The notes beneath the pieces were generated by a model. It was not told the origin of the DNA. It ran no database searches and saw nothing but the letters and a program-made list of their open reading frames with translations. Positions 6,982 through 35,745 of a stretch of 35,745 nt of DNA are shown piece after piece (positions within the stretch are counted from its first letter, which is position 1; each line of letters starts with the position of its first letter). Source of the DNA: Actinomycetota bacterium (GTDB taxonomy: Bacteria > Actinomycetota > Thermoleophilia > Gaiellales > F1-60-MAGs149); NCBI GenBank assembly GCA_005798855.1, contig SYIF01000034.1, positions 1-35,745 on the forward strand. The letters are read 5' to 3'. A program made the position numbers and the translations under genes.

Positions 6982-6996
6982 GAGTACTACGAGGAA

Positions 6997-9497: not shown

Positions 9498-9503
9498 ACC
9501 GGA

Positions 9504-10955
9504 CTAGTAGCGCTGCGGCACACCTTGCAGGGCACGCCGAACGGCGTTATCGAACGACATGCGCTCCTTCGGCACGAGGCGGAGGATATCGTCGTTAAGG
9601 CAGATCGTCTCGTTGCGCAGCCCCTCGACGAGAGGTCGCGCAATATTCGTGTCGACAGCGGTTACGAGTCCGCACCAGCGCGACGAAAGCGTCGGTGACA
9701 GCACGGGTACCGGCACGATGAACGGTTTGCGACGCCCCGCGAGCACTGCGACCCGCTCCATCATCTCCCGGAACGTGAGGATGTCGGGGCCGCCAACGTC
9801 GAGAGAACGACCATACGCCCCCGGCAGTGCGCAGACGCCGACGAGGTAGTCGCGCAGATCGGCGTAGGCAATCGGTTGCGAACGCGTCGTCACCCAACTT
9901 GGTGTGACCATCGCTGGAAGCCGGTGGACGAGGTCACGCATCATTTGAAACGAAGCGCTCTCCTGACCTACGACCATGGCGGCGCGCAGGGTGGTGACAG
10001 GTACGTCTCCCTCTGCAAGGATCTGACCGGTTTCGTGTCGACTCTGCAGGTGATGAGAAAGCTCGGGGTCGTCATCTCCGAGTCCACTCAGGTAGATGAT
10101 CTGTTTCACACCCGCCTGCGCGGCGGCAGCTGCGGCGTTGCGCGCTGCCACGCGATCGAGTTCGGCAAAATCGCCTCCGGCACTCATCGAATGCACCAGC
10201 CAGTAGACGACGTCGAGACCGACGAAGGCGCGATCGAGCGATTCGCGATCGAGGGCATCCCCGTGCGTCACCTCGATGTCGGCGACCTGTTCAAGATCCG
10301 GATTGGCGCGACGAACGATGGCGCGTACCTGTGCTCCTTGGTCGCGCAACTCCGGTACGAGGCGACGTCCAACGTAGCCCGAGGCTCCGACCACGCCGAC
10401 CTGCAGGCCGTTCAGGCGGCCCTTCGTGTCGAGGGGCGGAGGGGCAACGGGAATCGGATCGATCACGCTGGCGATGTCTTGGAGGCTGCGTTTTGTCACC
10501 CAGCCGTGCACGAGGTGCTGTGTCAGCGTGTAGGGAGCCGCAATCAGGAACGTTTTCGCGTGGAGGTGCTCGAAGCGTGGACGGTAGCCGTCGACGATCA
10601 CACCGAGGTGGACGCCGACGCCTTCGATACGAGCGATTATGCGGAGGTGTCCCGCCGCTGCCGAGCAGGCAAAGCCCCCAATGATTGGGAAGGCAACCTC
10701 GATACCCCCCTCTACTTCTACGACCTCGGCGGCGGCGAACGTGAGGATCGTGATGCCAGTCTTGGCGACTATGAGGCGGATCGGCCCAAGTGCCTCACCT
10801 TTGGCTTGGACGATGCCACCCAGTGACCGCTGCAGGCTCGTCCAGTACGCGTCGGCGATGCTCTCTGCGGACGTCGCCGTAGGTGGAATCACAGGGTTCG
10901 CTGGCGAGAGCCAGTATTCACTGTGCTGGTTGGCGACGCTGGTCCAATATTCCAT
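9504..10955 (-). CDS. NAD(P)-binding (NmrA / atypical SDR-like) protein with an extra ~170-aa N-terminal region
   Basis: C-terminal QVGVVGASGYVGRRLVPELRDQGAQVRAIVRR, YWLVHSM, AAQAGVKQIIYLSGLG. N-terminal region not recognised. Confidence 0.75.
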   Translation of the reverse strand: MEYWTSVANQHSEYWLSPANPVIPPTATSAESIADAYWTSLQRSLGGIVQAKGEALGPIRLIVAKTGITILTFAAAEVVEVEGGIEVAFPIIGGFACSAAAGHLRIIARIEGVGVHLGVIVDGYRPRFEHLHAKTFLIAAPYTLTQHLVHGWVTKRSLQDIASVIDPIPVAPPPLDTKGRLNGLQVGVVGASGYVGRRLVPELRDQGAQVRAIVRRANPDLEQVADIEVTHGDALDRESLDRAFVGLDVVYWLVHSMSAGGDFAELDRVAARNAAAAAAQAGVKQIIYLSGLGDDDPELSHHLQSRHETGQILAEGDVPVTTLRAAMVVGQESASFQMMRDLVHRLPAMVTPSWVTTRSQPIAYADLRDYLVGVCALPGAYGRSLDVGGPDILTFREMMERVAVLAGRRKPFIVPVPVLSPTLSSRWCGLVTAVDTNIARPLVEGLRNETICLNDDILRLVPKERMSFDNAVRRALQGVPQRY

Positions 10956-10997
10956 TTCTAAATCTTCGCAGCGCCTCGGCTACTAGACCGGTGCTGT

Positions 10998-11852
10998 TCA
11001 GCCACCCGCTTCGGCGACGCGCTCGAGGTGGTGCTCGCGTGCCACACGCGCCAGATCGACCATGCGCTTGGCCCGCTCCGGATCGACGCGATTTTGTGTC
11101 CTACCGTCGATCTTCAAGGCCGTACCGACGATGATGCCATCGGCGGTTTCGAGGATGCGCTCGGCGGTATCGTGACGCACCCCCGTGTTCGCGAGTACAG
11201 GCATATCGGGGCAGGCCGCCTTGGCCTCTTCGAGGTCGGCGAAGCGAAACGCCGAACCTGCGCGCGGGCCCGAGATCAGGGCCGCTTCGCAGCCAAAAAA
11301 CTGGGCGCCTTGTGCACGGTCGGCAACGGTGCGCGAGCCGAGCGGCGATGCAAATTCCGGCGTCAGGTTCGTAAAGACCGCAATGTCGTCGGCGCCGATC
11401 GAGTGACGGTAGGAGAAGGCGGCGCCCGGGTCGGGTCGCAACTGCCCCATGTCGCTCTCGTAGACACCGATAAAGACCTCACGGACAAAGCGCGCTCCGA
11501 CTGATCGACCGACGGCGAGCGTGGCGAACGGATCCCAGAGCATGTCGACGCCGATCGGGAGCGACAGTTCGGGCGTGATCTCGCCGATCACGGCAGACAT
11601 TGCAGTCGACTGCTCCATCGTCACCTCAACGCGATACGGCAGGTCGCCTTCGTTACAGAAGATGATTGCGTCGACCCCAGCCTCTTGGCAAACCTGCGCG
11701 TCGTGCTTGGCCGCCTCGGCGATCGGACGCATGCCCGCGGTGCGGTCGAAAGCAGGCGAACCGGGCAGCGCGAGGAGGTGAACAACACCAATCAGCGGCT
11801 TCGAAATGCCGAAGACGCGCTGCATAACTTGGTCTGCGAGGGTGCCTTCCAT
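10998..11852 (-). CDS. BtpA/SgcQ family protein
   Basis: FGISKPLIGVVHLLALPGSPAF, AGVDAIIFCNEGDLPYR, GVDMLWDPFATLAVG, TGVRHDTAERILETADGIIVGTALKIDG. Confidence 0.85.
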   Translation of the reverse strand: MEGTLADQVMQRVFGISKPLIGVVHLLALPGSPAFDRTAGMRPIAEAAKHDAQVCQEAGVDAIIFCNEGDLPYRVEVTMEQSTAMSAVIGEITPELSLPIGVDMLWDPFATLAVGRSVGARFVREVFIGVYESDMGQLRPDPGAAFSYRHSIGADDIAVFTNLTPEFASPLGSRTVADRAQGAQFFGCEAALISGPRAGSAFRFADLEEAKAACPDMPVLANTGVRHDTAERILETADGIIVGTALKIDGRTQNRVDPERAKRMVDLARVAREHHLERVAEAGG

Positions 11853-11909
11853 ACGTGTAACCGTATTGGGGGTGCACGAACACTGCAACCCGTGCCACAC
11901 TCCACGGCA

Positions 11910-12404
11910 ATGAGTGAGACCGTCATTCTGCCTGCTGGAGCCGGATCCATCGACCTTGGCGAGTTTGCGTTTGAGGCCGGTCTCGTCCGGCTGGCAACAG
12001 TTGGTGCGGACGGATCGCCGCTCGATTTCTCTTCACCTGTCGTCTTGGCGGCAGTCGCCACTGCACTTACCGATGACCCATTTGCGCCGTTTTCGACGGA
12101 TGCGTTGCGTGTGCTTGCCCCCGCCGCACTCGACGCGTTCGATGCCGCCGTGCCGACGCACGACGAGTTGCAGCGGCTCGCTCCGCTGTGGCGGCCACGA
12201 CTCTTGTCGCTCGCTGGGCGCCAGGCCGAACTGACGGGCGAGCAGACGGTCGTTCTGCGTTTCGAGGAGCGCCTGCGCGAGATCAAGCTTGGCATGGCGC
12301 GTGCCGAGGCGGAAGGCGATGAGGGTCGGCGGGAGGCGCTGCACGCCAAGTACATCGAGGTCGGCACGTCGTATGCCGGTCGGCTGGCGGCGCGTGGGCG
12401 CTGA
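11910..12404 (+). CDS. Hypothetical protein upstream of tilS
   Basis: 164-aa ORF MSETVILPAGAGSIDLGEF..., overlapping the tilS start. Confidence 0.6.
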   Translation: MSETVILPAGAGSIDLGEFAFEAGLVRLATVGADGSPLDFSSPVVLAAVATALTDDPFAPFSTDALRVLAPAALDAFDAAVPTHDELQRLAPLWRPRLLSLAGRQAELTGEQTVVLRFEERLREIKLGMARAEAEGDEGRREALHAKYIEVGTSYAGRLAARGR

Positions 12405-13320
12405 GCTCGTCAGCCGCATCGCCGAACGGGCGGATGCACTCGGGCTAAGGTCCGCAACACCAGTGGTCGCGATGCTCTCGGGCGGTGCCGACTCGACGCT
12501 GCTTGTCGTGGCACTTGCCGAACTCGGCTGTGCGGTGCGCGTTGTGCACGTTGAGCATGGGCTACGTGGCGAGGAGTCGGATGCAGATGCGGCGGCCTGC
12601 CGCGCTCTGACAGACGCCTTAGAACTGCCGCTGACCATCGTCGCTGGGCAGGTGGAAACGGGTGGCAACCTCGAGTCGCGACTCCGCGACGTGCGTCGTG
12701 CGGCAGCGCTCAAGGCCGCGGACGGCCACCTCATCGCGACGGGCCACACGCTCAGCGATCGCGCCGAGACAGTGCTCTATCGGCTCGCCTCCTCGGGCAC
12801 TGCCCGCGGACTAACCGCGCTACCACCACGTGATGGACAGTGGGTGCGTCCACTGATCGATTGCTCTCGTGACGACGTGCGAGATGAGTTGCGACGACGC
12901 GGAGTTGCGTGGCGGGACGATCCGACGAACCTCGAGGCCGGTCCGGCCCGCAACCGCATTCGCCTCGACGTATTGCCTGCGCTCGCCCGGGCCCACCCGG
13001 GCGCCGAACGCAATCTCGCCCGCGCCGCCGGGCTGGCCGACGATGAGCGAATCGTCCTCGACAGTCTTGCCGACGACCTGATCGGCAATGATGGCTCTGT
13101 GTCCCTCCAGGCCCTAACCATCGCCCCGCCAGCGCTGCAGCGCATTGCCTTGCGCCGTGCAGCCGCGCGTGTCGGCGTGACGCTCGGGCACGACGATGTT
13201 GAGGCTTTGCGCACCGACCCGCGGCGCCGCACGCTCCATGGTGCTGCGATGGCCGAGGTCTCGCGCGGCCAGATCACGTTCCTCTCGCCCAGCTCGGGCC
13301 GACCCGAAGGCGCCACATGA
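12394..13320 (+). CDS. tilS: tRNA(Ile)-lysidine synthase
   Basis: AMLSGGADSTLLVVAL (SGGxDS), VVHVEHGLRGEESDADA, ATGHTLSDRAETVLYRL, RRGVAWRDDPTNLE. Confidence 0.92.
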   Translation: MGAELVSRIAERADALGLRSATPVVAMLSGGADSTLLVVALAELGCAVRVVHVEHGLRGEESDADAAACRALTDALELPLTIVAGQVETGGNLESRLRDVRRAAALKAADGHLIATGHTLSDRAETVLYRLASSGTARGLTALPPRDGQWVRPLIDCSRDDVRDELRRRGVAWRDDPTNLEAGPARNRIRLDVLPALARAHPGAERNLARAAGLADDERIVLDSLADDLIGNDGSVSLQALTIAPPALQRIALRRAAARVGVTLGHDDVEALRTDPRRRTLHGAAMAEVSRGQITFLSPSSGRPEGAT

Positions 13321-13859
13321 CCCCCCGCCACCCCGCCCTCGTCGACCACATCGTCTCGCGCGAGCAGATTGCGACGCGCGTCGCCGAGCTTGGTGCCGAG
13401 ATCTCTGAGGTCTACGCCGGCCGCGAATTGAAATTGACCTGTGTCCTGAAGGGTGGCTTCATCTTTCTGGCCGATCTCGTCCGCGCCATCACGATTCCTT
13501 GCGCGATCGATTTCATGGTCATCTCGTCGTATGGATCGGGTACGCAATCGTCGGGCATCGTGCGGATTCTCAAGGACCTTGACGCGCCAATCGAGGGGAT
13601 GGATGTTCTCGTCATCGAAGATATCGTCGACTCGGGTCTCACGCTCTCGTATCTCTTACGCAATCTCGAGACGCGGCATCCCGCGACGCTCGAGGTCTGC
13701 ACGCTGCTCGCCAAGCCGGCCCGCCATGAGCACGACGTGCCGTGCCGTTTTGTCGGCTTCGAGATCCCCAACACCTTCGTCGTCGGCTACGGCCTAGACG
13801 CCAACGAGCGTTTCCGCGAGTTGCCCGATATCTGGTCGGTCGACAACTCGAAGCTCTAG
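13317..13859 (+). CDS. hpt: Hypoxanthine phosphoribosyltransferase
   Basis: VLKGGFIFLADLVRAI, DFMVISSYGSGTQSSGIVRILKDLD, VLVIEDIVDSGLTLSYL; ATGA overlap with tilS. Confidence 0.94.
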   Translation: MTPRHPALVDHIVSREQIATRVAELGAEISEVYAGRELKLTCVLKGGFIFLADLVRAITIPCAIDFMVISSYGSGTQSSGIVRILKDLDAPIEGMDVLVIEDIVDSGLTLSYLLRNLETRHPATLEVCTLLAKPARHEHDVPCRFVGFEIPNTFVVGYGLDANERFRELPDIWSVDNSKL

Positions 13860-13862
13860 GCG

Positions 13863-13897
13863 GATGTCCAGAAGGGGTCAGGCCCTATCTGGACATC
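13863..13897. repeat. Palindrome with a GGGGTCAGGCCC core, second member of the same kind as 5367-5407
   Basis: Arms GATGTCCAGA / TCTGGACATC (10 bp, perfect) around AGGGGTCAGGCCCTA, immediately 3' of hpt. Confidence 0.7.
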
Positions 13898-14003
13898 GGC
13901 CTACACGAGTGCAATGCGCGCGTCTTCTCAGGCGGACATGACAAGTGCGCACTTGTGGTGTCCACCTCTGAGTTGATCGACCGCGATCGGCCCGACGAGT
14001 TGC

Positions 14004-22932: not shown

Positions 22933-23169
22933 CGTTAGGTGCCTGCGGTCTGGCTCGAACCGACCTTCATGGCCTCCACTCTAGCGACCGAGCCACGGGC
23001 GGCCTCGAGGGGTGGTGAGCACTTCAAATGCACGAAATGATCGTGCGGTGCAATTCGCGCCCCCCGGGTCAGGTCGGCACGGAGAAGCGCCGCCGGCTAG
23101 AGCGGCCGCGTGTCGCGAACGCCACCGGGAACCCTGTGGCCCCGACGGGGCCCGGACGCCCGATCGGCG

Positions 23170-25332
23170 TCAGTACTCCTGCCGCGCCGCGAGCCGCGCG
23201 AAGTGCCCACCGCTCGCCAGCAGGTCAGCCGGCGCGCCTTCCTCCACGATCTGGCCGCCCGACACGACGAGGATGCGGTCTGCGCGCTCCACCGTGGTGA
23301 GCCGGTGCGCGATCGCGACACGGGTGACCGACTGACCCAGGATCGAGCGCATGACGATGGCCTGGGTCATGTTGTCGAGGGCACTGGTGGCTTCGTCGAG
23401 CAGGATCACACGGGGGTCGCTGGCGAGGGCCCGCGCGATCATGAGCCGCTGGCGCTGCCCGCCGGAGATCGCACCACCCCGGTCGCCGATCGGTACATCG
23501 AGACCGCGTGCGCGCACCTCGGGCTCGAGCCCGGACTCGGCGATGACCTGCCACAGGCGCTCGTCGTCGATCTGGAGCGGACCGCAGATGCACTCTCGGT
23601 ATGTCGTCCCAAACGGCATGGAGGTCTGCAGCACCGTTCCCATCTGCCGGCGAACGGCCGCGACATCGAGGTCGGCGAGGTCCTGTCCGTCGAAGGAGAC
23701 GACCCCGCTCCATGGTGTCTCGAAGCCGAGGATGAGGCGCATCACCGTCGACTTCCCTGATCCCGACGGACCCACAACGGCGACGAATTCCCCCGGCTCG
23801 ATCGTGATGTCGACGCCGTCGAGCAGCGGAGGCTGGTCAGGGTCGTAGCCGAAGACGATGTCGGTGAGCTGGATGCGACCCTGCAGCGGACCTGGCGCAC
23901 GCGTGGGACCCGGCCGCTCGACCGCGGTGGACGTAATGGGCACCACACGCTCCAGCACGGGTCCCAACTCGGCGACCGTATTCAGATTCTGGGCGAACAG
24001 GCCCATGGCGATGGTGAGTTGCGCAACCGCGACGTACGCTCCCATGAAAGCCGACGCGGTGAACGAGCCCTGCCCGGCAACCACCGTAAGAACGAGAATC
24101 ACGTTCATGAAGATCGGCCCGGCAATGAGAACCGGCTCCGACCTTTTGACCCCGACGAGGCGGCGCTCCAATGTGGTCAGCTGGTTCGCAAAGTGCCGGG
24201 CCCATCGAGCCATCGCCCGGGACTCCGCGCCGCTCACGCGAATGGGGACGATCGCGCCGATCATGGCGACGAAACTGCTCTCACTCGCGCTTCGATCCTC
24301 GAGGTACTGCACAAGGTGACCACGTGCACGCGTCTGCAAGAACGAGACAAGCGCCACAGCGATCAAGATGATGAGGCACATCGCAATGCCGAGTACCACG
24401 TCGATCGCGAGCAGGTACCCCAGATTGACGAAGCCGAAGACCGACGTGAGCACCAATGCGAGCACCCCGTCATCGACGGTTTCCCTGGCAGTCTCGACCG
24501 CCAGAGAACGGTTGAGGATCTCGCCGGACTGCATGCGCCTGAGAAACGGAACGGGTAGACGCAGGAGATGCGCCATGATGCCCGGGGCCAGACGTTCATC
24601 GCTCGATTGGCGCAGCCTGATCAGCATCAGATTGCGGGCGACGATGAGCATGGCGCCCCCCCCCGCGCTGCCGAGAGCGAAGGCAACCAGGATGCCGGCC
24701 GCCAGGCCGGAGTTTCCCGAGGGAACGGCGACCCCGAACAGCCCCGACGTGGCAACCGGCAGGAGCAGGCCGATGGTGCCTCCGAGCAGCGAAAGCAGGA
24801 GCACCGTTCTCACCTGGGTCAGCCGCCCGCGCACTGACCACCAGATGAGTGCTCGCCACGATGCCCCGGGCGGCAGCGAACCGGTCACGACGACGGTTTC
24901 CGCAGCATCGTCGGCACCGGGGAAACGCGTGCGTGTGCGGTTGCCACCGGCTACGGCGTCGGCACCCGATCCACTCGGCAAGATCGCCGCTGCCGTCTCA
25001 CCCGCTGTGGTCACCGCCGGTCTTGGCAACGAGTCCCACCAGCGTGCTCCTCGCGGTGGAGGCGCGACCAGCAGACCCGAGGCCGCAGCGATGGCATCCA
25101 TGGGCGGGAGTTGGCGCTCGACGCGAGGATCAGGTGCGCGCACCTCGCCGTCGATGGTGGACAGGGCCACGGAGTAGGCATCGAGCAGAGGTGAAGAGAA
25201 GCGCGGTGCACGCGCCAGATACCCGTCAGGAGTCGCTGCGGCAACCACCGTGTCGACGGCCTCGTCCCACGACGTATCGGGTGTTCGACGGTCTGGAGTT
25301 TTGCGTTCCTCAGCCATGGACCAACTCCGCAA
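23170..25332 (-). CDS. NHLP/NHLM-type leader-peptide export ABC transporter (TM + ATPase)
   Basis: Six-TM ABC core; GPSGSGKSTVMRLILGF Walker A, GGQRQRLMIARALASDPRVILLDEATSALDN; ~300-aa N-terminal extension typical of the NHLM ATP-binding subunit. Confidence 0.8.
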   Translation of the reverse strand: MRSWSMAEERKTPDRRTPDTSWDEAVDTVVAAATPDGYLARAPRFSSPLLDAYSVALSTIDGEVRAPDPRVERQLPPMDAIAAASGLLVAPPPRGARWWDSLPRPAVTTAGETAAAILPSGSGADAVAGGNRTRTRFPGADDAAETVVVTGSLPPGASWRALIWWSVRGRLTQVRTVLLLSLLGGTIGLLLPVATSGLFGVAVPSGNSGLAAGILVAFALGSAGGGAMLIVARNLMLIRLRQSSDERLAPGIMAHLLRLPVPFLRRMQSGEILNRSLAVETARETVDDGVLALVLTSVFGFVNLGYLLAIDVVLGIAMCLIILIAVALVSFLQTRARGHLVQYLEDRSASESSFVAMIGAIVPIRVSGAESRAMARWARHFANQLTTLERRLVGVKRSEPVLIAGPIFMNVILVLTVVAGQGSFTASAFMGAYVAVAQLTIAMGLFAQNLNTVAELGPVLERVVPITSTAVERPGPTRAPGPLQGRIQLTDIVFGYDPDQPPLLDGVDITIEPGEFVAVVGPSGSGKSTVMRLILGFETPWSGVVSFDGQDLADLDVAAVRRQMGTVLQTSMPFGTTYRECICGPLQIDDERLWQVIAESGLEPEVRARGLDVPIGDRGGAISGGQRQRLMIARALASDPRVILLDEATSALDNMTQAIVMRSILGQSVTRVAIAHRLTTVERADRILVVSGGQIVEEGAPADLLASGGHFARLAARQEY

Positions 25333-25755
25333 AGAGGCCCTCGGTCACGAGTTGCGTGAAGGTGCCGCGCTGGACGATGCGTCCTGCATCGACCACGACA
25401 ATCTCGTCGGCGTCGCGAATGGTGCTCAGGCGGTGCGCTACGAGGATGGTGGTCACGCCGCGAGTGCGAAGCCGTGCCTCCACCTCAGCCTCGACGACGG
25501 GATCGAGTGCACTCGTCGCCTCGTCTAGCACGATGATCCGCGGATCACCCGCCAGGGCGCGTGCGATCGACAGACGCTGCAGCTCGCCCCCGCTGAAGCC
25601 GCCATCGGCCGAAGTGACGTGATGAAAGAACGCTCCTGGTCGGCTGAGGATCGTGCCTTCGATACAGGCATCGCGCGCAGCTCGCTCCACTGCATCATCG
25701 GTGATGCCCTCATCCCACAACGTGAGATTCTCACGGATCGTGGAGTTGCCCCGTC
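25310..25755 (-). pseudogene. Truncated ABC transporter ATPase domain (C-terminal remnant, probably the partner NHLP transporter)
   Basis: NSTIRENLTLWDEG...GGELQRLSIARALAGDPRIIVLDEATSALDPVVEAEVEARL...VAHRLSTIRDADEIVVVDAGRIVQ. No Walker A or TM region; similarity ends near 25755. Confidence 0.8.
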
Positions 25756-25912
25756 TTTGTGGACACGGGTTGTTGGTGGTTTGATCATGCTGGCCCGGCC
25801 TCGGCGCCGAGCCGCTAGCGCCGCCGCCTGTGGAGCAATCCGTGGAGCAATCCGGGCAACGAGAGGCGACCTATGACGACCAGCGCCGCGCGGGACGCTA
25901 GGATTCAAGCGA

Positions 25913-25956
25913 GGCGGGGTGCCGGAGTGGCCTATCGGATCGGTCTTGAAAACCGC
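25913..25956 (+). pseudogene. Orphan 5' half of tRNA-Ser(UGA), left island junction (attL)
   Basis: GGCGGGGTGCCGGAGTGGCCTATCGGATCGGTCTTGAAAACCGC, then non-tRNA sequence; TAGGAT -10-like box at 25899. Confidence 0.88.
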
Positions 25957-25990
25957 TGACGCACCGCATATATAAGCCATTTAGAGGGGA

Positions 25991-26017
25991 TGCGGTCCGA
26001 TTCGCGGTCCGTTTCGC
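25991..26017 (+). repeat. Left arm-type repeat
   Basis: TGCGGTCCGATTCGCGGTCCGTTTCGC: two 12-bp units, 25/27 identical to 35616-35642. Confidence 0.85.
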
Positions 26018-26090
26018 TACGATTCGGAGGCAAAAAGAAGCCGGAGCGCGGCTGACACCGCCTCCGGCGCGACCGAGAAATAGAGACTCG

Positions 26091-27326
26091 ATGGCACCGA
26101 ATCTTACCGGCATCACGATCCGCCACTCGCGGGACTGCGCGACGGCGAAGGGGCGGAAGCGCTGCGACTGCTCGCCGACGTACCGCGTCCGCATCGAGCA
26201 CAACGGACGCCGCACGTCGGAGACGTTCCCGAGCGTCGCCGCGGCGATTGCCTACCGTGACGAGTCCAAGCGGCGCGCCCGGCGCGGCCTCGACCCGGCG
26301 CCGTCTCGGACGGTTGGCGATGCCCTCGACGACCTCGTGGCCAACCTGGAGTCGGGACGCGCGGTGAATCGCAGCGGCGACCCGTTCAAGCCGAGCGTCG
26401 TCCACGGGTACGTGCAGGCCATCGAGACGAACCTCCGCCCCGCCCTCAGTGGTCGTCTCGTCAAGACGCCCGTCGCCTCGCTGACCCGCAAGGAGATCCA
26501 AGCGCTCGTGGACGAGTTCAAGACGGCTACCCCGCGGCGGCGCGGCGGCCGCGCATTGTCGCCGTCTTCGATTCGGAACCGGCTCATGCCGCTACGGGTC
26601 GCCATTCGCGAGGAGCTGGCGAATCTCTCGATCGACCACGATCCGTTCGCTGGCGTCCGGTTGCCGACCGTCCGTGGTACTCGGGACCGCGTGGCGGCCG
26701 ATCACGAGGCAGCCCGCCTCCTCGCCGTCCTCGACGACCCGGAGCGCGCCTACTTCGCCGTCGCGATGTATGCCGGTCTCCGCCGCAGCGAGGTCAGCGC
26801 GCTGCGATGGGAAGACGTGGACCTTGATGCGCGCCGCGTCCACGTCCGCTCCGCCTACTGCCATCGGACGCACCAGATCACGTTCCCCAAGTCCGCCGCT
26901 GCCGTGCGCTCGGTGCCGACCACCGAAACGCTAGTGGCGATCCTCGACGTGTACCGCGCCCGGCTCGCCGCTGACGAGGGCGCCGAGCGGATCGCGCCGA
27001 CCGAGTACGTCTTCGCCGCCGCGCCCGGCTTGCCACTCGGCGGGGACGCCGTTTCCAAGCGCGCCCGCAAGGTGTGGGCGGCGCGCGACCTGACCCCGAT
27101 CACCCTGCAAGAGTGCCGCCACACATTCGCGAGCCTCACCGCCGCGTCCGGCACCGGGCTGGAAGACCTGTCCGAGTGGATGGGGCACACGAGCCTGAAC
27201 CTCACGTGGAAGACCTACCGGCACCTGTACCCCGAGGCCGCGGAGGCGACCCGCCTCCGGCTGGACGCCTACCTTGCGCCGTCGACAATCGAACTGCGCG
27301 GACTGACTCGCACGATCGAGGACTAG
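26091..27326 (+). CDS. Tyrosine recombinase / phage integrase
   Basis: MYAGLRRSEVSALRWEDVDL, LQECRHTFASLTAASG, LSEWMGHTSLNLTWKTYRHLYP. Confidence 0.93.
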   Translation: MAPNLTGITIRHSRDCATAKGRKRCDCSPTYRVRIEHNGRRTSETFPSVAAAIAYRDESKRRARRGLDPAPSRTVGDALDDLVANLESGRAVNRSGDPFKPSVVHGYVQAIETNLRPALSGRLVKTPVASLTRKEIQALVDEFKTATPRRRGGRALSPSSIRNRLMPLRVAIREELANLSIDHDPFAGVRLPTVRGTRDRVAADHEAARLLAVLDDPERAYFAVAMYAGLRRSEVSALRWEDVDLDARRVHVRSAYCHRTHQITFPKSAAAVRSVPTTETLVAILDVYRARLAADEGAERIAPTEYVFAAAPGLPLGGDAVSKRARKVWAARDLTPITLQECRHTFASLTAASGTGLEDLSEWMGHTSLNLTWKTYRHLYPEAAEATRLRLDAYLAPSTIELRGLTRTIED

Positions 27327-27360
27327 CCTCACCGGACCGCAATCGCACCGCTGTCGCCGG

Positions 27361-27783
27361 GCGCTGCTCGGCAACCTCGTCGGTATCAACACCGCGATGT
27401 ATAGCGATAGTTCGGGTCAGCGCATGGAAGGCGTCAACTACGCCGTTAGTGCCCAGCGGATCAACGAACTCATTGATGGACTGACTTCAGGAAAGGCTGT
27501 AGGCGAGTTCGGCATGGACTTGTCCCCGGCCTGGGAGAAGGGTACGGATCCGACTGTCGATCCACCTGCGGCTCTCGAGATCCTCGGAGTAGCTTCCGGG
27601 AGCGCCGCCGCTACTGCCGGCATCGAGACAGGCGACTACGTCGTGGGTGTTGACAACGTTGACGTCACCGACCTCGTCGCATACTGCGCTCTCGTCGGCG
27701 ACCGGCAACAACACACGATCAGTACGTACGACGCTGACGTGGAAACGTCACGTGATGACTCGTTGTCGCCCGCTGTTTGGTGA
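27361..27783 (+). pseudogene. C-terminal remnant of an HtrA/DegP-like serine protease (post-active-site segment + PDZ)
   Basis: ALLGNLVGINTAMYSDSSGQRMEGVNYAVSAQRINELIDGL then PDZ-like LGVASGSAAATAGIETGDYVVGVDNVDVTDLVAYCALV. No protease domain upstream. Confidence 0.75.
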
Positions 27784-27890
27784 GCGTACTGCTCATCTAG
27801 GCCCACACGGCATTCAGATGAGGACTGACTCAGCGTAGGCAGAGGGCAACTGCTACCCGAGAAATTCCGCAACGAGTTTTGGGATCCCGG

Positions 27891-29333
27891 TTACGAAGAC
27901 TGCGGTATCAGGAAACCCGGGGTCTTGGCCAAGCCTTGTAGCGTTTTCCCGGATTCCTTGGCGCCCGACGCGTCGTCATAGTTAACACAATGCTCCGCTC
28001 GGAACAATTCGTCCCATGCTTGTTGCCACCCCAATGGACTTCCAGATCCCTCTAACTTGCATTTGCCTAGCGCTTTCTTGGTCCTCAAGATGGAGGCCTC
28101 CGTCGTCCTAAAGACAGGTGACGTGTAGTGTAACCCCGCTCGGATCCGAAGAAGATTGCGAGCGGTATCCAGCAACTGGAATTTAGCTTCCACACAGGCA
28201 GCGGATACCTCCGACTCTTGTGATTCTGTCCCTGTTGCCGTTGCTTGCGCGACAGCACTAGCATCGGTCGAAGATCCTGAACCACCCCCAAACACCAGAT
28301 ACCCACCTACACCTCCGACCGCGAGGACGGCAACGACAAGGCCGAGCACCACAAATTTTGTCTTGCCTGGTTTGGTCGCCACTTCACGCACCGGCGGCGG
28401 CGATATGGGTTCGGCAGCGCGCCCGTCGCCAACGACTGTCCCCGTCGGGCCGACCGGTGATGGTGCAATCACGGTGCCCGTCCGGCTACTCACTTGAGCA
28501 ACGCCCTCGGCTGCGACGATGCCCGCCGCAACAGCCACGAGATCAGCACAAGACGCGAATCGCACGGCTGGATCCTTGGCAAGCGCACGCGTCACAACCT
28601 CGTTCAGTCGCGCATCAGCAACCGCATCACCGGTCACGATCAACGGCGGCGCATCATTGGCATGCGCAAACAACGATTGGATCGTGTCCTCACGCCGAAA
28701 CGGCGGCTCACCAACAACCATCTCATAGAGCACACAGCCAAGCGCGTACTGATCGGCGCGACCATCAACATCACCACCACGGATCTGCTCAGGCGACACA
28801 TAATCGACGGTGCCGACCCACGAACCCGTCTGCGTGGCACGCGTGCCCTGCATCACACGACCAATGCCAAAGTCGACGAGCACCGGGTCAGAGCCGTCAT
28901 CAGGAACGAGAATGTTCGCTGGCTTCACATCTCGATGCACGATGTTCGCCGCATGCGCTGCGTCGAGACCAGCCGCGATCGGCCGCAGCAGAGCGATCGC
29001 CGCGTCGATGCCATACGAACCACGCTCCGCCAGGATTTCTGACAACTCGCGCCCGCGGACGAGCCGCATCGCGAGGAACGGGATGTCGTTCTTCTCGCCG
29101 GCCTGGTAGATCGCGACAACGCTGGGATGCTCAACGCGAGCGGCGGCCTTCGCCTCCTGCGCGAACCGCGCGCGAAACGCCGGATCCTGCGCCAGATGCT
29201 CAGCGACAACCTTGAGCGCAACCTCGCGATCAAGCTTCGGGTCGTACGCGAGGTACACGATGCCCATCGCACCACGCCCGATCTCGCCACGGATCTCGTA
29301 CCCGGCAAACGAACTCCCCGGCGATAGATCCAC
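27891..29333 (-). CDS. Hanks-type Ser/Thr protein kinase with C-terminal TM and extracellular region
   Basis: GEIGRGAMGIVYLAYD, VALKVV, IVHRDVKPANILV, VDFGIGRV, GTVDYVSPEQIRGG, then KFVVLGLVVAVLAVGGVGGYLVF. ORF extends to 29405; VDLSPGSSFAGYEI is the likelier start. Confidence 0.9.
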   Translation of the reverse strand: MDLSPGSSFAGYEIRGEIGRGAMGIVYLAYDPKLDREVALKVVAEHLAQDPAFRARFAQEAKAAARVEHPSVVAIYQAGEKNDIPFLAMRLVRGRELSEILAERGSYGIDAAIALLRPIAAGLDAAHAANIVHRDVKPANILVPDDGSDPVLVDFGIGRVMQGTRATQTGSWVGTVDYVSPEQIRGGDVDGRADQYALGCVLYEMVVGEPPFRREDTIQSLFAHANDAPPLIVTGDAVADARLNEVVTRALAKDPAVRFASCADLVAVAAGIVAAEGVAQVSSRTGTVIAPSPVGPTGTVVGDGRAAEPISPPPVREVATKPGKTKFVVLGLVVAVLAVGGVGGYLVFGGGSGSSTDASAVAQATATGTESQESEVSAACVEAKFQLLDTARNLLRIRAGLHYTSPVFRTTEASILRTKKALGKCKLEGSGSPLGWQQAWDELFRAEHCVNYDDASGAKESGKTLQGLAKTPGFLIPQSS

Positions 29334-29510
29334 GAGACGACTCCCCCTACGCAACGACTCAGTGAGCGCAGCGTACCTAACATGACGGCATACGCCGAAT
29401 GTCATGTTGGATGGAGTTGTCCCGGTTTGGTGGACACCTCACTTGGGCGCGATGATGCGCTTGGAGAGGAGTGGGGTGTTGGTGATCTTCTCCGACCTTC
29501 CCGAAGCGAT

Positions 29511-29561
29511 CCGCGGACTGATCCGGTGATCCTTCCTTAGAGCGCGGGATCAACGGATCAC
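29511..29561 (-). repeat. 51-bp inverted-repeat sequence A, matching 35182-35232 in opposite orientation
   Basis: TGATCCGGTGATCC / GGATCAACGGATCA arms (13/14 pairing). Reverse complement aligns ungapped to 35182-35232 at about 39/51 positions (hand count). Confidence 0.65.
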
Positions 29562-29747
29562 GAGGCAATACGACCCTCCCGGCACTCTCCGAAGGGTGGG
29601 TCTGAACTGAAGCAAGTTTCGGCTTGCGACCCCGGCCCCGCGTGTCTCTGATGAAAACAGCGCGCCGACCCGTATTCCCCCACGACGGGGTGGGTTGCCC
29701 ACGCAGCGAACCCGCGAACCGGCCTGAGCGCGTGCGATCCTGTACCC

Positions 29748-30107
29748 GTGGAACCCGATCCGACCCTATCGCCTGCAGCTGCGACGGCGTGGCGGCTCGC
29801 CGTCGAGCAGCTGGGCGACGACGCGCCTGTGTTCGCCGACGCGATCCGGCGCTACGCGTGCGCGGTCGACGTTGCCGATCGGATGCGTACCGATTGGCTC
29901 GACCGGGGCGCGCCGACGTTCGCCGAACATACGAACGGGGCCCTGTACGAACACCCGCTTGTGAAGTCGATCCGGGGTGCGGAGCGCGAATCGGCGACGT
30001 TCGCGAGGGCCCTGCAGATCACGCCCGCGTCGGAGAGCTGGCAGGACCGGCACACGCGACACGCTCGACGCGCTGACCCGCCTACCCCGCGGAGTGGTGC
30101 GGCCTAG
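29748..30107 (+). CDS. P27-like phage terminase small subunit
   Basis: 119 aa: LSPAAATAWRLAVEQL...ALYEHPLVKSIRGAERESATFARALQITPASESW, matching the HP(L/A)VKxxRxAE...LxLTPxS block of P27-type TerS. Confidence 0.7.
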   Translation: MEPDPTLSPAAATAWRLAVEQLGDDAPVFADAIRRYACAVDVADRMRTDWLDRGAPTFAEHTNGALYEHPLVKSIRGAERESATFARALQITPASESWQDRHTRHARRADPPTPRSGAA

Positions 30108-30137
30108 CTCGCTTCGGAATCGGTGTGATTAGACGAT

Positions 30138-31496
30138 TCAGGCATCGTCCAGTTCTTCGAGTACAACCTTCGCCTCCTCATCACCAGCATCTGCAGCCTT
30201 CTCGTACCAGACTCGCGCTGTCTCTACGTCACCGGCTTCGTCGGCGAGTCGGCCGACGTTGAACATAGCGTCGGCGCGGCCGGCGCCCGCGGCCTCCTCG
30301 TACTTGGCTCGGGCCGCCTCAACGTCGCCCGCGCCTTCAGATTCCAACCCGAGCAGGATCATCCCAGTGAGGTCCCCAGCATCGACGGCCTTCTCCCACC
30401 AAATGAGTGCCGCCTCAATGTCACCCTCTTCCTTAATCATGAGACCGAGATTGATCATTGCGTCCGTGTCGCCCGCTTCGGCGGCTTTCTCGTACCAGTC
30501 GTGAGCCACCGCAGTCTCCCCTGAATCTTGAGCATGTAGCCCGACGTAGAACATCGCGTCTGAGTCACCAGCCTCTGCGGCCTTCTCGTACCACGCGTGT
30601 GCCGCCGCGTCGTTGCCAGCATCGCGTTCAAGGGTTCCTAGGCGCTCCATCGAGTAGGCGCTACCCAGTTGAGCGGCCTTCTCGTGCCAAGCGCGAGCGG
30701 CGATTAAGTCGCCCTCGTCGCCACTGATATCCCCGAGCAATTGGAGCGCACCAACATCTGCTTGTACCGAAGCACGCGTAGCCCATCGCTTCGCTTCAAT
30801 CAGATCACCGCTTGCATATACGAGCTCGGCGATCTGAACCATGACCCACGAGTTTCCCGCATCGGCCAGGGGCTCCCACCACTGACGAGCAGCGTCAACG
30901 TCGCCGCGTTCCGCAGCCAGAACGCCAAGTTGATTTGCAGCCATGCCGTTGCCCCTCGCTGCTGCTTTCTCGAACAATTGGCGCGCCTCCGCAGCGTTAC
31001 CCTCATCCGCTTCGATCGCTCCAAGTCGGTACATCGCATCCGAGGTACCGAAGTCAGACGCCAGTGCGTAGAACCGACGCGCCATCTCACGGTCCCCCTC
31101 ACCCTCAACCCGCTCGCCCAGGCGAAACAATGCCCACCCGGCCGACTCTGGATCAAGCGCGCCCAATCGCATGAACCACGAACGCGCCTCGTCGATGTTG
31201 TCGCGACTTTCGGCCTCTTGTCCGAGGCGACTAAGCGCGTCGGTGTTGCCGAGATCAGCGGCCTTCCTCCACCAGGAATGAGCGTTCTCTACATCACCTT
31301 CGTCACTGGCCGCCCCCAAGAGCGCCTCCGCGAGTTCAACCATCGCATCTGAGTCGCCAAGTTCGGCAGCCTTCTCAAACCACTCAATCTCTGTGTCGAA
31401 ATCCCCCTCTTCTTCAGCTGAACGACCGAGGTCCAGCATCGCGTCCGCGTCACCGCCAACTGCCCGAGCCTCTAAGTCGCTCCGATCGTCACTCAC
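30138..31496 (-). CDS. Sel1-like / TPR-like repeat protein, about 13 repeats
   Basis: Tandem 32-aa units such as AEAGDSDAMFYVGLHAQDSGETAVAHDWYEKA and AEAGDTDAMINLGLMIKEEGDIEAALIWWEKA. Confidence 0.88.
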   Translation of the reverse strand: MSDDRSDLEARAVGGDADAMLDLGRSAEEEGDFDTEIEWFEKAAELGDSDAMVELAEALLGAASDEGDVENAHSWWRKAADLGNTDALSRLGQEAESRDNIDEARSWFMRLGALDPESAGWALFRLGERVEGEGDREMARRFYALASDFGTSDAMYRLGAIEADEGNAAEARQLFEKAAARGNGMAANQLGVLAAERGDVDAARQWWEPLADAGNSWVMVQIAELVYASGDLIEAKRWATRASVQADVGALQLLGDISGDEGDLIAARAWHEKAAQLGSAYSMERLGTLERDAGNDAAAHAWYEKAAEAGDSDAMFYVGLHAQDSGETAVAHDWYEKAAEAGDTDAMINLGLMIKEEGDIEAALIWWEKAVDAGDLTGMILLGLESEGAGDVEAARAKYEEAAGAGRADAMFNVGRLADEAGDVETARVWYEKAADAGDEEAKVVLEELDDA

Positions 31497-31522
31497 GCCG
31501 ATTCAGCCTCCGCCGACAAGGG

Positions 31523-31939
31523 TTAGCCGGCCATCATTACGAGCGCGCACCCACCGAGTGCGACTACGCCGATCACGACTAGAACAATGATGACGAGTAC
31601 CCACGTCGACGCGGAACTCTTTTTCTCGATAATGATCGTTACGGGCTGTTGTGCAGTCGTAACGGCCGGGCTTCCAACCGCTTGTGGCGTGTCCGTTCCC
31701 GAGGGGCTTCCAAATGAACTCGTGGGCTTCCCGTATACGTGTCGCCAGAGAATCCAAAAAGCGTATATAGCGACGATCAACGGAAGAATCGGGTTCACGC
31801 TGTAGCTTACAATCCCGCCCACGATAAAGAAAATAACGACAGATAACCCAATCCCGCCCCATCTCCTACCCCTAGACACCCGCATACCATTTCGGAAAGT
31901 GATGGCGAGCAAAATACTTTTCATTTTCGCGCGATCCAT
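31523..31939 (-). CDS. Small multi-TM membrane protein upstream of the Sel1-like protein
   Basis: GIGLSVVIFFIVGGIVSYSVNPILPLIVAIYAFWILW and C-terminal STWVLVIIVLVVIGVVALGGCALVMMAG. Confidence 0.7.
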   Translation of the reverse strand: MDRAKMKSILLAITFRNGMRVSRGRRWGGIGLSVVIFFIVGGIVSYSVNPILPLIVAIYAFWILWRHVYGKPTSSFGSPSGTDTPQAVGSPAVTTAQQPVTIIIEKKSSASTWVLVIIVLVVIGVVALGGCALVMMAG

Positions 31940-32070
31940 GTGCCGACCATAACAGAACGGCTAAACCCTATACCCGTAACCGAGTCCGTTCTACGTCTTA
32001 GATAAATACGCAGAAATAAGGGGGGTTGCCTCGCGCGAGACCGATACCCTCACGCGTCAAGCGATCATTC

Positions 32071-32450
32071 CTAATAGCTTGGAGCGGGGTCGAATTGGTC
32101 GGCGAGCGTGTACGCGGCATGCTCGTCGAGCCGGTTAGCGTTGAGGTCGTAGCGGCGAGTCGTGCGCGGGTCGGCGTGGCGTGCGAAGTCCTGCACGATA
32201 TGCAGCGGCACGCCAGCGTCGAGCGCCGCCGTGATCGCCGAATGGCGAAGGCTGTGCGGGCTGATCCGCTTCGTGATGCCTGCGCGCTGGGCGATCCGGG
32301 CGACGAGCTTCGCGACGTTGTGCCGGTCGAGGGCGTGCCCCGTCGACGTCTGCAGGACGAATCCGGTCGTGCGGTCGCCGATCACGACGTCGAGGGCCTG
32401 ACGCGTCGGCGTGTTGAGCGGCACGACGCGGCGGCGGCTGCCCGGTCAGT
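32071..32450 (-). pseudogene. C-terminal catalytic remnant of a second tyrosine recombinase
   Basis: RRRVVPLNTPTRQALDVVIGDRTTGFVLQTSTGHALDRHNVAKLVARIAQRAGITKRISPHSLRHSAITAALDAGVPLHIVQDFARHADPRTTRRYD. In-frame TGA just upstream; N-terminus absent. Confidence 0.85.
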
Positions 32451-32838
32451 CTTCCTCGACCCGTCGACGGCGGAGAAGCGGAAGCCGGGCGGACAGGTCG
32501 GATCGGCGCGAGCGAAGGATCGCATCGGCGCCGCGCGCCGCGATCACCGCGCGGCGACCGGGTTGGATCCGCGCGTCTACGGCTCGATGCCGATCTTCGA
32601 TGACGAGGGGAATCCCATCCCGCTCGTGCAAAAAGCGGGCGAGACGCGCTTCCCGCGCCGCGCAGCCTGAGCCACCGCGCCCAGTAGAATGTAGGCACGC
32701 GCCCGCCCTTCGCGGCGAGCGCGCTCCGAGGTCTTCGATCCCTCGGCGCCTGACCGCAGCGGCCGCCTCCGGGCGGCCGTTGTCGTTGTCGGGAGGGCAA
32801 TCCGAGAACCGTCTGAATGCGGGCGTAACATGTCAGCA

Positions 32839-32891
32839 CCGGCAATCCTGCCGGCCGCCTGTCAGGCGGATGATCGAAAGGAGGCGCCTCC
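32839..32891 (+). promoter_or_regulatory. Three back-to-back palindromes leading into the SD of the replication operon
   Basis: CCGGCAatccTGCCGG (32839-32854), CCGCCTGtCAGGCGG (32855-32869), GGAGGCGCCTCC (32880-32891, overlaps the SD); ATG at 32893. Confidence 0.65.
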
Positions 32892-32892
32892 A

Positions 32893-33351
32893 ATGAGAGG
32901 ATCGCCCGAAATGCGGAGACGGCGCGTCGCCGAGATCCGTAGAAAAATGACGAGAAGGCCGAGCGGCATCGCCGCGGTCCGGGAGATCGATCACGATTCT
33001 GGGTCGTGCATCGAAACGTTCCTCCCCGATGGGTCGACGCGTCCGGCCACTCCGGCGGAGCGCGCCTGGTGGGCCGCTGGAGAGCCCCCCGCGTACTTCG
33101 CGATCACGACCGACGGCCGCGTGATCGACACCGGCGACTCGGGACACCGCGTCGCTCGCACGACCCGCGAGCAGCGCTCGCCGAGCACGACCCGCACGAC
33201 CAGCCGCCGCGCTCGCACGAGCGCCACGTCGTCGGCTGACCCCTCCTCATCACGAGTCCGCCTGAGCGCTGACGCGCTCGGCGCCCTCCGAATCGAGACG
33301 ACGCGCCTCGGCCTCCGCCTCGCGCTGCTCGGGATCGGCGGTGCGCGATGA
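32893..33351 (+). CDS. Small basic hypothetical protein, first gene of the replication operon
   Basis: MRGSPEMRRRRVAEIRRKMTRRPSGIAAVREIDHDSGSCIETFLPDGSTRPATPAERAWWAAGEPPAYF; SD GGAGG; ATGA overlap with the next gene. Confidence 0.6.
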   Translation: MRGSPEMRRRRVAEIRRKMTRRPSGIAAVREIDHDSGSCIETFLPDGSTRPATPAERAWWAAGEPPAYFAITTDGRVIDTGDSGHRVARTTREQRSPSTTRTTSRRARTSATSSADPSSSRVRLSADALGALRIETTRLGLRLALLGIGGAR

Positions 33352-35276
33352 GCGGCGGGATCGACATCGTGACGGCCGCCGCCAAGTGGGCGAGCATCGG
33401 CCAGTACGTCTTCCCGTACGTCGCCAAAGCGAAGGTGCCGTTCGGGGGCAGCCACGGGCACCATGACGCATCGGATGACCCGGAGACCGTCGTCCGACTG
33501 TTCCGGCACTACATCGAGACGACGGGACAGACCGCCGGGATCGGGGTCTGGACGGGAGCGAGCGGGATCTCGACGATCGACTGCGATAACACGACCGCCG
33601 GGAGCGAGTTCCGCCGGATCGCCGGAGACGCCGCGCTGAAGACGCTCGTCATGCAGACGCGCCGCGGGTGGCAGTTCTTCTACCGAGTCCCGAAGGGCAT
33701 CGAGTTGCCGAACGGCAGCAGTCGCCTTCGCGGCATCGAAGGACTCGACCATCGGTCGGGGAGCAGTTGGGCGGCGCTCCCGCCGTCCAAGGTGAAGACT
33801 CTCGATGGGGAGTATCGCTTCCCCGGCCATGACCTGGAGTTCGCCATCGCGAACTTTTGGGACCTCGCGATTGAGATGCCGGAGAGCGTCCTCGACCTCA
33901 TCCTGAATCCCGGAGGTGGCGATCCCGCCACCGGGCGGGGCGGTGAGCGCCGGAAACTCCGGAGCCTCATCGACGATGGCAGGCTGAAGATCCCGACCGG
34001 CGCCCGAAATGAGGGCCTCCACGCCGTTAGCGGCTACTTCCGACACATCGGGATGAGCGAGGAGTCCATCCTCGGCGCCCTCGCGGCGGTCAATGCTCAC
34101 GACTGCGAGGAGCCTCTTCCGGAGAAAGAACTCGACGGCATCGCGAAGTCGATCGCGACGAAAGAGCCCGGCACGCTGCCCGGCGCCGCGCCGCCGAAAC
34201 TCCACCGTCTCGACGTTGCTTACATGGTCGAGCACGACCCGCCGCCCGTCGATTGGGTACTTGATGGGATTGCGGCGCGCTCGGCGGTGACGATGATTCA
34301 CGGCGACGCCGGGCTAGGTAAGTCCATGTTCGCCCTCGCGGGCGCCGTCGCAGTCACGCGCGGCGCGCCGTTCATGAATCACTCCACCCCGCGCGGCCGT
34401 GTTCTCTACATCGACGCTGAGAACGGCAAGGGTGAGGCTCACCGGCGCATCCGCGCCCTCGGTCTCACCGCCGCCGAGGCGGGGAGTCTCGTCTATTGCG
34501 AGGCTCTCGGGGTTGATCTCCGCGGTGATGCGGACGAGCTCCTCAGCGCCGCCGTTGACGCCGAGCCGGATCTCGTCATTGCGGACAGCCTCGCGACTCT
34601 CTCGCGGAGTGATGAGGACTCGTCGGGCGAGACGACCCTGGCAATCCAAGTCCTTCAGCGCATCGCGCGGGAGACGGGGGCCGCGGTCATCCTCCTGCAC
34701 CACGACAAGAAGGACAAGACCAACTTCCGCGGTTCGAGCGCGATCGCGGCCGTCGTCGAGATCCGCTGGCACCTCACGAAAGACGCAGACCGCGAGAACG
34801 CGCGACGGCTCGTCAATGAGAAGTGCCGATTGGCCGCCGAGGCGCCCGAGCGGTGGATCGAGATCCGACAATCCGAGCGCGGCATCGAAGTCGCGCAGAT
34901 CAGCAAGCCGCCCACGAGCAAGGAGGCCGAGGATTGGGATTCGGTCGTGGAACTTCTCAGCGATGGGCGGCCTCGGACCAATCGCGAGATCGCCGTAGAG
35001 ACAGGACTCGCGAGCCCTGGCGGCGGTTGTCCCGGCAGCCTGGCGCGGCTACTGAAGGAGAAGCGTAATGCGGGCTATCTCGTCGGCGGCAGCGCCGGAG
35101 GCGTCACGCTGGCGCCTCACCTCATGCCGACCAAGAACGTGGAGGAGCCCGCGAAGGCGCCACCGCCCGCGGCGCCGCGCCCTGATCCGCTGATCCCCCC
35201 ACCTAGGGATGGATCGCGGGATCAGCCCGCGTCGGGCGCGTTCATGCCCGACCCGGATATCGGAGAGGCGGCATGA
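33348..35276 (+). CDS. Bifunctional DNA primase/polymerase plus RepA-like (AAA_25) helicase
   Basis: AEP-like FPYVAKAKVPFGGSHGHHDASDDPETV...GIGVWTGASGISTIDCD; Walker A MIHGDAGLGKSMFALAGA; LVIADSLATLSRSDEDSSGE; VILLHHDKKDKTNFRGSSAI. Confidence 0.87.
   Translation: MSGGIDIVTAAAKWASIGQYVFPYVAKAKVPFGGSHGHHDASDDPETVVRLFRHYIETTGQTAGIGVWTGASGISTIDCDNTTAGSEFRRIAGDAALKTLVMQTRRGWQFFYRVPKGIELPNGSSRLRGIEGLDHRSGSSWAALPPSKVKTLDGEYRFPGHDLEFAIANFWDLAIEMPESVLDLILNPGGGDPATGRGGERRKLRSLIDDGRLKIPTGARNEGLHAVSGYFRHIGMSEESILGALAAVNAHDCEEPLPEKELDGIAKSIATKEPGTLPGAAPPKLHRLDVAYMVEHDPPPVDWVLDGIAARSAVTMIHGDAGLGKSMFALAGAVAVTRGAPFMNHSTPRGRVLYIDAENGKGEAHRRIRALGLTAAEAGSLVYCEALGVDLRGDADELLSAAVDAEPDLVIADSLATLSRSDEDSSGETTLAIQVLQRIARETGAAVILLHHDKKDKTNFRGSSAIAAVVEIRWHLTKDADRENARRLVNEKCRLAAEAPERWIEIRQSERGIEVAQISKPPTSKEAEDWDSVVELLSDGRPRTNREIAVETGLASPGGGCPGSLARLLKEKRNAGYLVGGSAGGVTLAPHLMPTKNVEEPAKAPPPAAPRPDPLIPPPRDGSRDQPASGAFMPDPDIGEAA
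35182..35232 (+). repeat. 51-bp sequence B, inverted partner of 29511-29561, inside the prim-pol 3' end
   Basis: CTGATCCGCTGATCCCCCCACCTAGGGATGGATCGCGGGATCAGCCCGCGT. Confidence 0.6.
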
Positions 35277-35557
35277 TCGAGACCGCCCTCACCGATGCCG
35301 ACCTGGAGTCGGCGACCGAGAAGAAACCGAAGAAGAAGCGCCTCCAGCCCGGCGGGACACTTCACCGCGTCCGCCCCGTCCCGGCGCTTGCCCTCAGCAT
35401 CGAGGAGGCGGCCCGCGCGTGTGGGGTGTCGCCGGAGACGTTCGATCGGCACGTCCGGCCATACGTCGCCCAAGTGCCTGTCAGCCCCGGCGTCGTGATC
35501 TTCCGCCCCGAGACGATCGCGGAGTGGCTGAAGAACACGGAGACAGCGGGCACCTAG
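35273..35557 (+). CDS. Small HTH protein, excisionase-like (Xis/AlpA-type candidate)
   Basis: ALSIEEAARACGVSPETFDRHVRPYVAQVPVSPGVVIFRPETIAEWLKN; ATGA overlap with prim-pol and next to attR. Confidence 0.7.
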   Translation: MIETALTDADLESATEKKPKKKRLQPGGTLHRVRPVPALALSIEEAARACGVSPETFDRHVRPYVAQVPVSPGVVIFRPETIAEWLKNTETAGT

Positions 35558-35564
35558 ACCACGA

Positions 35565-35600
35565 GGGCGCCGGGGTCCGCTTCGCGCGGCTCCGGCGCCC
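35565..35600 (+). terminator. Hairpin at the end of the replication operon
   Basis: GGGCGCCGG...CCGC TTCGC GCGG...CCGGCGCCC; 9-bp outer stem, GC-rich, no U-tract. Confidence 0.5.
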
Positions 35601-35615
35601 GAGTGGGGTCCGGGC

Positions 35616-35642
35616 TGCGGTCCGTTTTGCGGTCCGTTTCGC
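35616..35642 (+). repeat. Right arm-type repeat
   Basis: TGCGGTCCGTTTTGCGGTCCGTTTCGC: two 12-bp units, same orientation as 25991-26017. Confidence 0.85.
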
Positions 35643-35698
35643 CCGACGAGTGACGACGCATGGCGACAGATGGCGACCGAGCGCCTAGGATTCATCCC

Positions 35699-35745
35699 GG
35701 CGGGGTGCCAGAGCGGCCTATTGGGGTGGTCTTGAAAACCGCAGC
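35699..35745 (+). tRNA. tRNA-Ser(UGA), 5' half, truncated by the window end (attR)
   Basis: GGCGGGGTGCCAGAGCGGCCTATTGGGGTGGTCTTGAAAACCGCAGC; anticodon loop CTTGAAA; TAGGAT -10-like box at 35686. Confidence 0.88.

Follow-up and report, generated by a model that had tools for sequence, protein, structure and literature searches.

What kind of mobile element occupies a tRNA-Ser(UGA) gene in a draft genome of Gaiellales, and does it move as a satellite of phages? To our knowledge, few phage satellites have been described outside Pseudomonadota and Bacillota. The window that we analyzed is the whole stretch of 35,745 nucleotides forming one contig (C18) of this genome, which amounts to 1.93 Mb in 142 contigs and is 72% complete. 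An initial annotation had likened the genes at the right end of the window to those of a satellite of the type of phage-inducible chromosomal islands (PICIs). From the sequences, an integrative phage satellite that uses a small terminase subunit (TerS) and works like a PICI seems the best reading, with a probability of about 0.55. With its ends defined, a diverged second copy in the same genome, a copy in a sister species, and a candidate phage family carrying the same 42-bp site, the element makes TerS-mediated hijacking testable in a little-studied lineage.

The element is a discrete island with an integrase and attachment sites, and its ends can be fixed (Table 1). It spans positions 25957-35742 (~9.8 kb, with a predicted excised circle of 9786 bp) and is flanked on either side by a copy of the tRNA-Ser(UGA) 5' half. 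These copies form a 44-nt direct repeat with 86% identity (25913-25956 and 35699-35742), and the cores of attL and attR are identical over 15 nt. The second copy ends three bases before the end of the window. The final 18 bases of the window recur at the start of another contig of the genome (C74, read on its reverse strand), where they run into the 3' half of tRNA-Ser(UGA), which has a single copy in the genome. Hence, the right junction is attR. The native promoter box at the empty sites of the related genomes G007 and G012 is TACAAT, and the element brings TAGGAT instead. PICIs use an attachment site that prophages of the species never occupy; within the genus, where few genomes and no prophages were available for comparison, we saw only islands of this type at tRNA-Ser(UGA). 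To the left, the window follows the upstream region of the native tRNA up to about 23063. Between this position and the island lies a probable remnant, of which the last 127 nt (25830-25956) match the right end of the element of the sister species G005 with 90.6% identity and carry arm repeats of the G005 type. Since this foreign right end and its arm repeats remain, an earlier element was probably once inserted in the same tRNA gene.

Table 1. Features of the island and its left flank in window coordinates
Feature	Position	Strand	Evidence or remark
Probable remnant outside the island	23064-25956		ABC exporter (truncated) and a right end whose arm repeats differ (25830-25852)
attL	25913-25956	+	tRNA-Ser(UGA) 5' half; core GGTCTTGAAAACCGC at 25942-25956
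Left integrase arm-type repeats	25987-26017	+	31 nt, 90% identical to right set
Tyrosine integrase, 411 aa	26091-27326	+	PF00589 1.8e-19, 71 bits; phrog_1 6e-51
PDZ-domain protein, putative cargo	27397-27783	+	PF17820 5e-7
PknB-like Ser/Thr protein kinase, putative cargo	27891-29405	-	PF00069 4e-44
42-bp palindrome, copy 2	29519-29560		Kinase-TerS intergenic region, 188 bp upstream of TerS
P27-type TerS, 119 aa	29748-30107	+	PF05119 27.6 bits, cutoff 24.7
Sel1/TPR repeat protein, putative cargo	30138-31496	-	PF08238
Small probable membrane protein (hydrophobic stretches)	31523-31939	-	No family match
Second tyrosine recombinase, C-terminal remnant	32071-32424	-	PF00589 positions 70-166 only
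ORF173, start codon uncertain	32830-33351	+	G005 homologue, 52% over 156 aa
Double hairpin ahead of replication operon	32839-32869	+	Within ~45 nt identical in G005
Prim-Pol + PriCT_1 + AAA_25 (RepA-type helicase) replication protein, 642 aa	33348-35276	+	PF09250, PF08708, PF13481
42-bp palindrome, copy 1	35183-35224		Inside 3' end of the replication gene (primpol)
AlpA/Xis-like HTH protein	35273-35557	+	phrog_66 excisionase 8e-5, weak Pfam HTH; homologues in C55, G005
Right integrase arm-type repeats	35612-35642	+	31 nt, 90% identical to left set
attR	35699-35742	+	Element-borne tRNA-Ser(UGA) 5' half, closely preceded by its own TAGGAT box; C74 has the 3' half

Pfam and PHROG searches recovered the integrase, the P27-like TerS, the prim-pol/RepA-type protein and the small HTH/Xis-like gene that the initial annotation had named. 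Its inventory was incomplete, as it omitted the PDZ, kinase, Sel1/TPR and membrane protein genes, the broken second integrase, and ORF173. It had also reported that capsid, portal, large terminase (TerL) and tail genes were lacking, which agrees with our scans: none of these genes, no lysis gene, and no remnant of any of them was found among the main ORFs of the island with Pfam and PHROG. Intergenic gaps measure at most ~400 bp across the island, too little to accommodate a gene for TerL, portal, capsid or TraB. There is no FtsK/TraB or relaxase among the island proteins, and an Rfam scan of the island gave nothing above the gathering cutoff. Neither TerL (PF03354) nor portal (PF04860) was found in the 72%-complete genome. 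Hence, any helper would be external, use a TerL of another family, or lie in the missing part of the genome.

The cargo genes have a GC3 below that of the core genes. The PD-T4-6 models of PADLOC match the kinase, probably through its generic kinase domain, and a role in defence is possible. At the replication end, the substitutions between ORF173 and its G005 homologue favor the third codon position in the first half only. Two adjacent hairpins, CCGGCAATCCTGCCGG and CCGCCTGTCAGGCGG, are found at 32839-32869 of the window and at 64-94 of the G005 locus (L020), in a stretch of ~45 nt that is identical between the two species while the neighboring DNA is only ~70% identical.

The TerS exceeds the Pfam cutoff by a margin of 2.9 bits, has a PHROG E-value of 0.02, and gave no match in NCBIfam. 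When its AlphaFold model (pLDDT 82) was compared with BFVD using Foldseek, the matches were mostly terminase small subunits, with probabilities near 1.00 and E-values only down to 2e-3. A fold search of the PDB with the same model returned no significant solved structure. The assignment of this gene to the small terminases in the initial annotation is thus borne out by profile and by fold, and the candidate satellite encodes its own TerS. Searches of phages, plasmids and IMG/VR with the TerS or the primpol revealed no close relative.

The same genome has a second island, in tRNA-Ser(CGA), where the integrase, TerS, primpol and HTH genes are present in diverged form. Contig C85 (L024) shows the 5' half of tRNA-Ser(CGA), followed by an integrase and, after a fragment of Sel1, a TerS; these two proteins have 42% and 36% identity, respectively, to those of the window. 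The Sel1 fragment adjoins TerS, as the Sel1/TPR gene does in the window island. Contig C55 (L019) shows a primpol (59% identity in the helicase part), then the HTH gene and finally a complete tRNA-Ser(CGA). Since the tRNA 5' halves of the two contigs have 46 nt in common without a mismatch and the arm repeat GCGCTGCAAAAyGCGCTGCAATCT is found at each end, we infer that C85 and C55 most likely carry opposite ends of a single element. Beyond about position 12830 of L024 there is an abrupt change in GC3 (0.93-0.95) and the cut-off end of a gene, which suggests that C85 is chimeric past this point. In the sister species G005 (L020), a homologous ORF precedes a PrimPol whose helicase domain differs, the HTH gene and then tRNA-Ser(UGA). 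As the second and the sister-species islands match that of the window, the target, the arm sites and the rep-HTH end are conserved despite the divergence of the sequences. TerS is kept in both islands of the genome where that region is visible.

These islands bear on whether the locus could be what decay has left of a single complete prophage, in which the integrase, replication and TerS genes were kept by chance. A prophage from the same order (G113, L057) does unite int, primpol, HTH, TerS and TerL, and the island has both a broken integrase and a suspect residue in the other one (see below). Yet the island retains no trace of capsid, portal, TerL, tail or lysis genes while its core ORFs are intact, the TerL-free set is found again in the second island, whose ends are shared and whose arm sites match, and the sister species has the same rep-HTH end. 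We consider this origin improbable. The initial annotation had opposed a decayed prophage to its own reading, and the ends kept by the second and the sister-species islands argue against a single decaying prophage.

The histidine of box II (HxxR) is catalytic in the tyrosine recombinase family. It is present in 38 of the 39 proteins that we scored, the exception being the window integrase, which has a glutamine at this position. The catalytic fitness of this integrase is therefore in doubt. In the PICI-like reading of the initial annotation, the gene set is supported, while helper dependence, packaging, a defined pac or cos site and an intact integrase are putative. A scan of genome contigs with this integrase produced only distant matches (in Clostridia, Enterococcus and Myxococcales). 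One could suppose that the element was once an active satellite and is now dead, with an integrase inactivated by this change and islands persisting as carriers of cargo. The unique glutamine and the remnant accreted next door would fit such a fate, which is very improbable given that all core ORFs are open, that the att cores have remained identical and the arm repeats 90% so, and that the assembly may have broken at the att core because the population is mixed.

We screened 399 genomes of the class for TerS, found PF05119 above the cutoff in 22, and searched the fetched neighborhoods (up to 20 kb) with iterated profiles. Some of these loci are ordinary terminase pairs of prophages; several others have TerS and an integrase and no detected TerL. 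A capsid-like gene was found in eight of the latter (L124, L126, L127, L128, L131, L135, L139 and L143), two calls being confirmed by PF05065 and that of L143 being made by eye. L139 also has a long tape-measure-like ORF and may be a prophage. The loci L131 (3460-13133), L128 (1922-10199), L126, L124, L127, L135 and L143, from several families, combine an integrase, an HK97-type or other capsid-like gene, and TerS; TerL and portal were undetected in them. The TerS loci without capsid are L142, from the same order (int-AAA-TerS), and L129. The latter (2680-13906) contains, in this order, a serine recombinase, HNH, TerS and PrimPol, is flanked by chromosomal genes, and has no capsid or TerL; its layout resembles that of the window island, and its proteins are unrelated or distant. 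In L130 (80-5492), AAA and TerS are followed by a large restriction/modification-like gene near a tRNA-Gly at the start of the contig, possibly a TerS element with defence cargo. TerS without TerL is found repeatedly in the class and is not an isolated case. Of the 40 elements whose integrases are nearest to that of the window, a single one has TerS (L201, where it adjoins TerL), so that the gene combination of the window is uncommon.

The main rival to the satellite reading is a conjugative or mobilizable Prim-Pol element, i.e. a non-phage integrative element related to the integrative conjugative/mobilizable elements of actinomycetes (AICEs). Integrase, Xis and Prim-Pol replication would then maintain the element, conjugation would be provided in trans, and TerS would be a captured gene that plays no part in packaging, or a DNA-binding regulator. 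Indeed, Int, Prim-Pol and Xis form a known module set of AICEs (PMC3218068), the closest integrases of the class mostly lie beside an HTH gene in elements devoid of TerS, and elements with int and AAA but no TerS exist in the order. We nevertheless find this explanation unlikely, because the island has neither FtsK/TraB nor relaxase and because TerS was retained in two islands that have diverged to 36-59% identity.

A 42-bp palindrome with the pattern TGATCCnnTGATCY-14-RGATCnnnGGATCA is present twice in the island, and a third copy occupies the same place in the primpol of the second island (C55). When the island was shuffled 500 times (first order), the pattern never appeared. In IMG/VR, it was found in four contigs, all from one phage family and only at the terS-terL junction (small terminase phrog_4102 4e-12, large terminase phrog_2 4e-41), while a scrambled pattern had zero matches. 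We fetched around 50 relatives of this phage family. Some have the site at the junction; it is empty in a second group, despite TerL identities of up to 98%, and occupied by a tRNA-Leu in a third. Since close relatives are devoid of it, the palindrome was gained and lost in phages and is not an essential cos. The hypothesis that it is the cos or pac site of the helper was rejected because phages with 98% identical TerL lack it, and the copy upstream of TerS is a candidate pac site only. In the ~39-kb phage family (L229-L265), the terS-terL junction, ~80 nt upstream of terL, is an insertion spot that is either empty or filled by a 46-bp palindrome, by a tRNA-Leu or by direct repeats of short length.

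As both islands have the palindrome at the 3' end of their primpol, it may be a replication origin; its presence in phages without a detected homologue of the island Rep, in the part of their genomes that was fetched, weighs against this. The two repeat pairs at this end lie inside the gene, around a GC-rich 14-nt spacer, and also occur in the phages. At the same place, the primpol of G005, which differs in its helicase domain, has a different palindrome (GGACAAAGCGGACAAA...TTTGTCCGCTTTGTCC, L020 2920-2971), which had no match in IMG/VR. The plainest reading of these sequences is that the palindrome may be a recognition site common to phages and islands. Some of these phages and the genome of G005, from the host genus, have a repeat gene in common (70-77% DNA identity), a weak hint that they may infect the genus. 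One can go further and propose a new lineage of satellites of serine tRNA genes, with a PrimPol-AAA_25 replicon and a P27-type TerS, mobilized by the ~39-kb phages (L225-L251) and sharing with them the palindrome as a control or DNA-processing site. This extension is rather doubtful at present.

We return to the reading of the island as a TerS-using satellite. It is supported by the association of int, TerS, Pri/Rep and a Xis/AlpA-like HTH gene with no structural gene in a bounded 9.8 kb. It is weakened by the lack of TerL and portal in the genome, the modest TerS scores, the glutamine of the integrase and the broken second one, the absence of the palindrome from near-identical phages, and the lack of a related element in the virus collection queried with primpol and TerS. 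As the junctions show, the integrase recombines the element with tRNA-Ser(UGA), whose gene is restored by the incoming 5' half and promoter. If this reading is correct, the Xis-like HTH protein may aid excision, giving a circle with the predicted order ORF173-primpol-HTH-attP-int, which, from its domains, the element's own PrimPol-helicase could replicate. The P27-type TerS would then take over the large terminase and the empty heads of an infecting helper phage, resulting in the packaging of the island DNA, with the kinase, PDZ and Sel1/TPR genes presumably as cargo. Packaging through TerS is suggested by the gene content, by the retention of TerS in two islands, and by analogy with the role published for the TerS of some SaPIs (PMC10690885).

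The island can be compared with several known systems. AICEs with Prim-Pol also have a tyrosine integrase, a Xis-like gene and Prim-Pol replication, whereas the island lacks their FtsK/TraB transfer gene and has TerS (PMC3218068). The phage satellites MulchRoom and MiniFlayer of Streptomyces are, like the proposed one, satellites of Actinomycetota, but unlike the island they have genes for capsid and packaging and lack a primase (PMC10690885). Ordinary prophages (e.g. L057, same order) have a Terminase_4/P27-type TerS of the same family as that of the island; it adjoins TerL in these prophages, whereas TerL is absent from the island. The candidate PICIs of Mycobacterium (PMC10654092) resemble the island in being actinobacterial, with an integrase, in some cases tRNA attachment sites, helicase or terminase genes, and no full virion set. 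They are defined by int and a major capsid gene (PMC10654092), and capsid is absent from the island: capsid profiles matched none of its ORFs while they find capsids in L124-L139. It is the eight capsid-bearing loci of our survey that resemble these candidates.

Finally, we did not file the island as a member of the PICIs, since these are defined by their interaction with a helper phage, which induces them, is disturbed by them and packages them, and no PICI-specific family or orthologue was matched among the island proteins. Where PICIs have a transcription regulator of the stl or alpA type, the island offers a single HTH protein, with phrog_66 at 8e-5 and weak Pfam HTH matches. It differs from them in its size (9.8 kb instead of 12-15 kb) and in having rep and xis at the end opposite to int. 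A primase and Rep replication module of the PICI type is present, with a PrimPol+AAA_25 architecture unlike that of the known Pri-Rep. The origin of PICIs lies immediately 3' of rep, with two sets of iterons flanking an AT-rich stretch (PMC6092414), whereas the repeats of the island are inside rep and have a GC-rich spacer. Yet the island shares with the PICIs of E. coli and the SaPIs an integrase, a putative regulator of the Xis/AlpA type, a Pri-Rep fusion, the terS that some of them carry, a specific attachment site, a rep gene whose 3' end has iteron-like repeats, and the lack of structural and lytic genes (PMC6092414).
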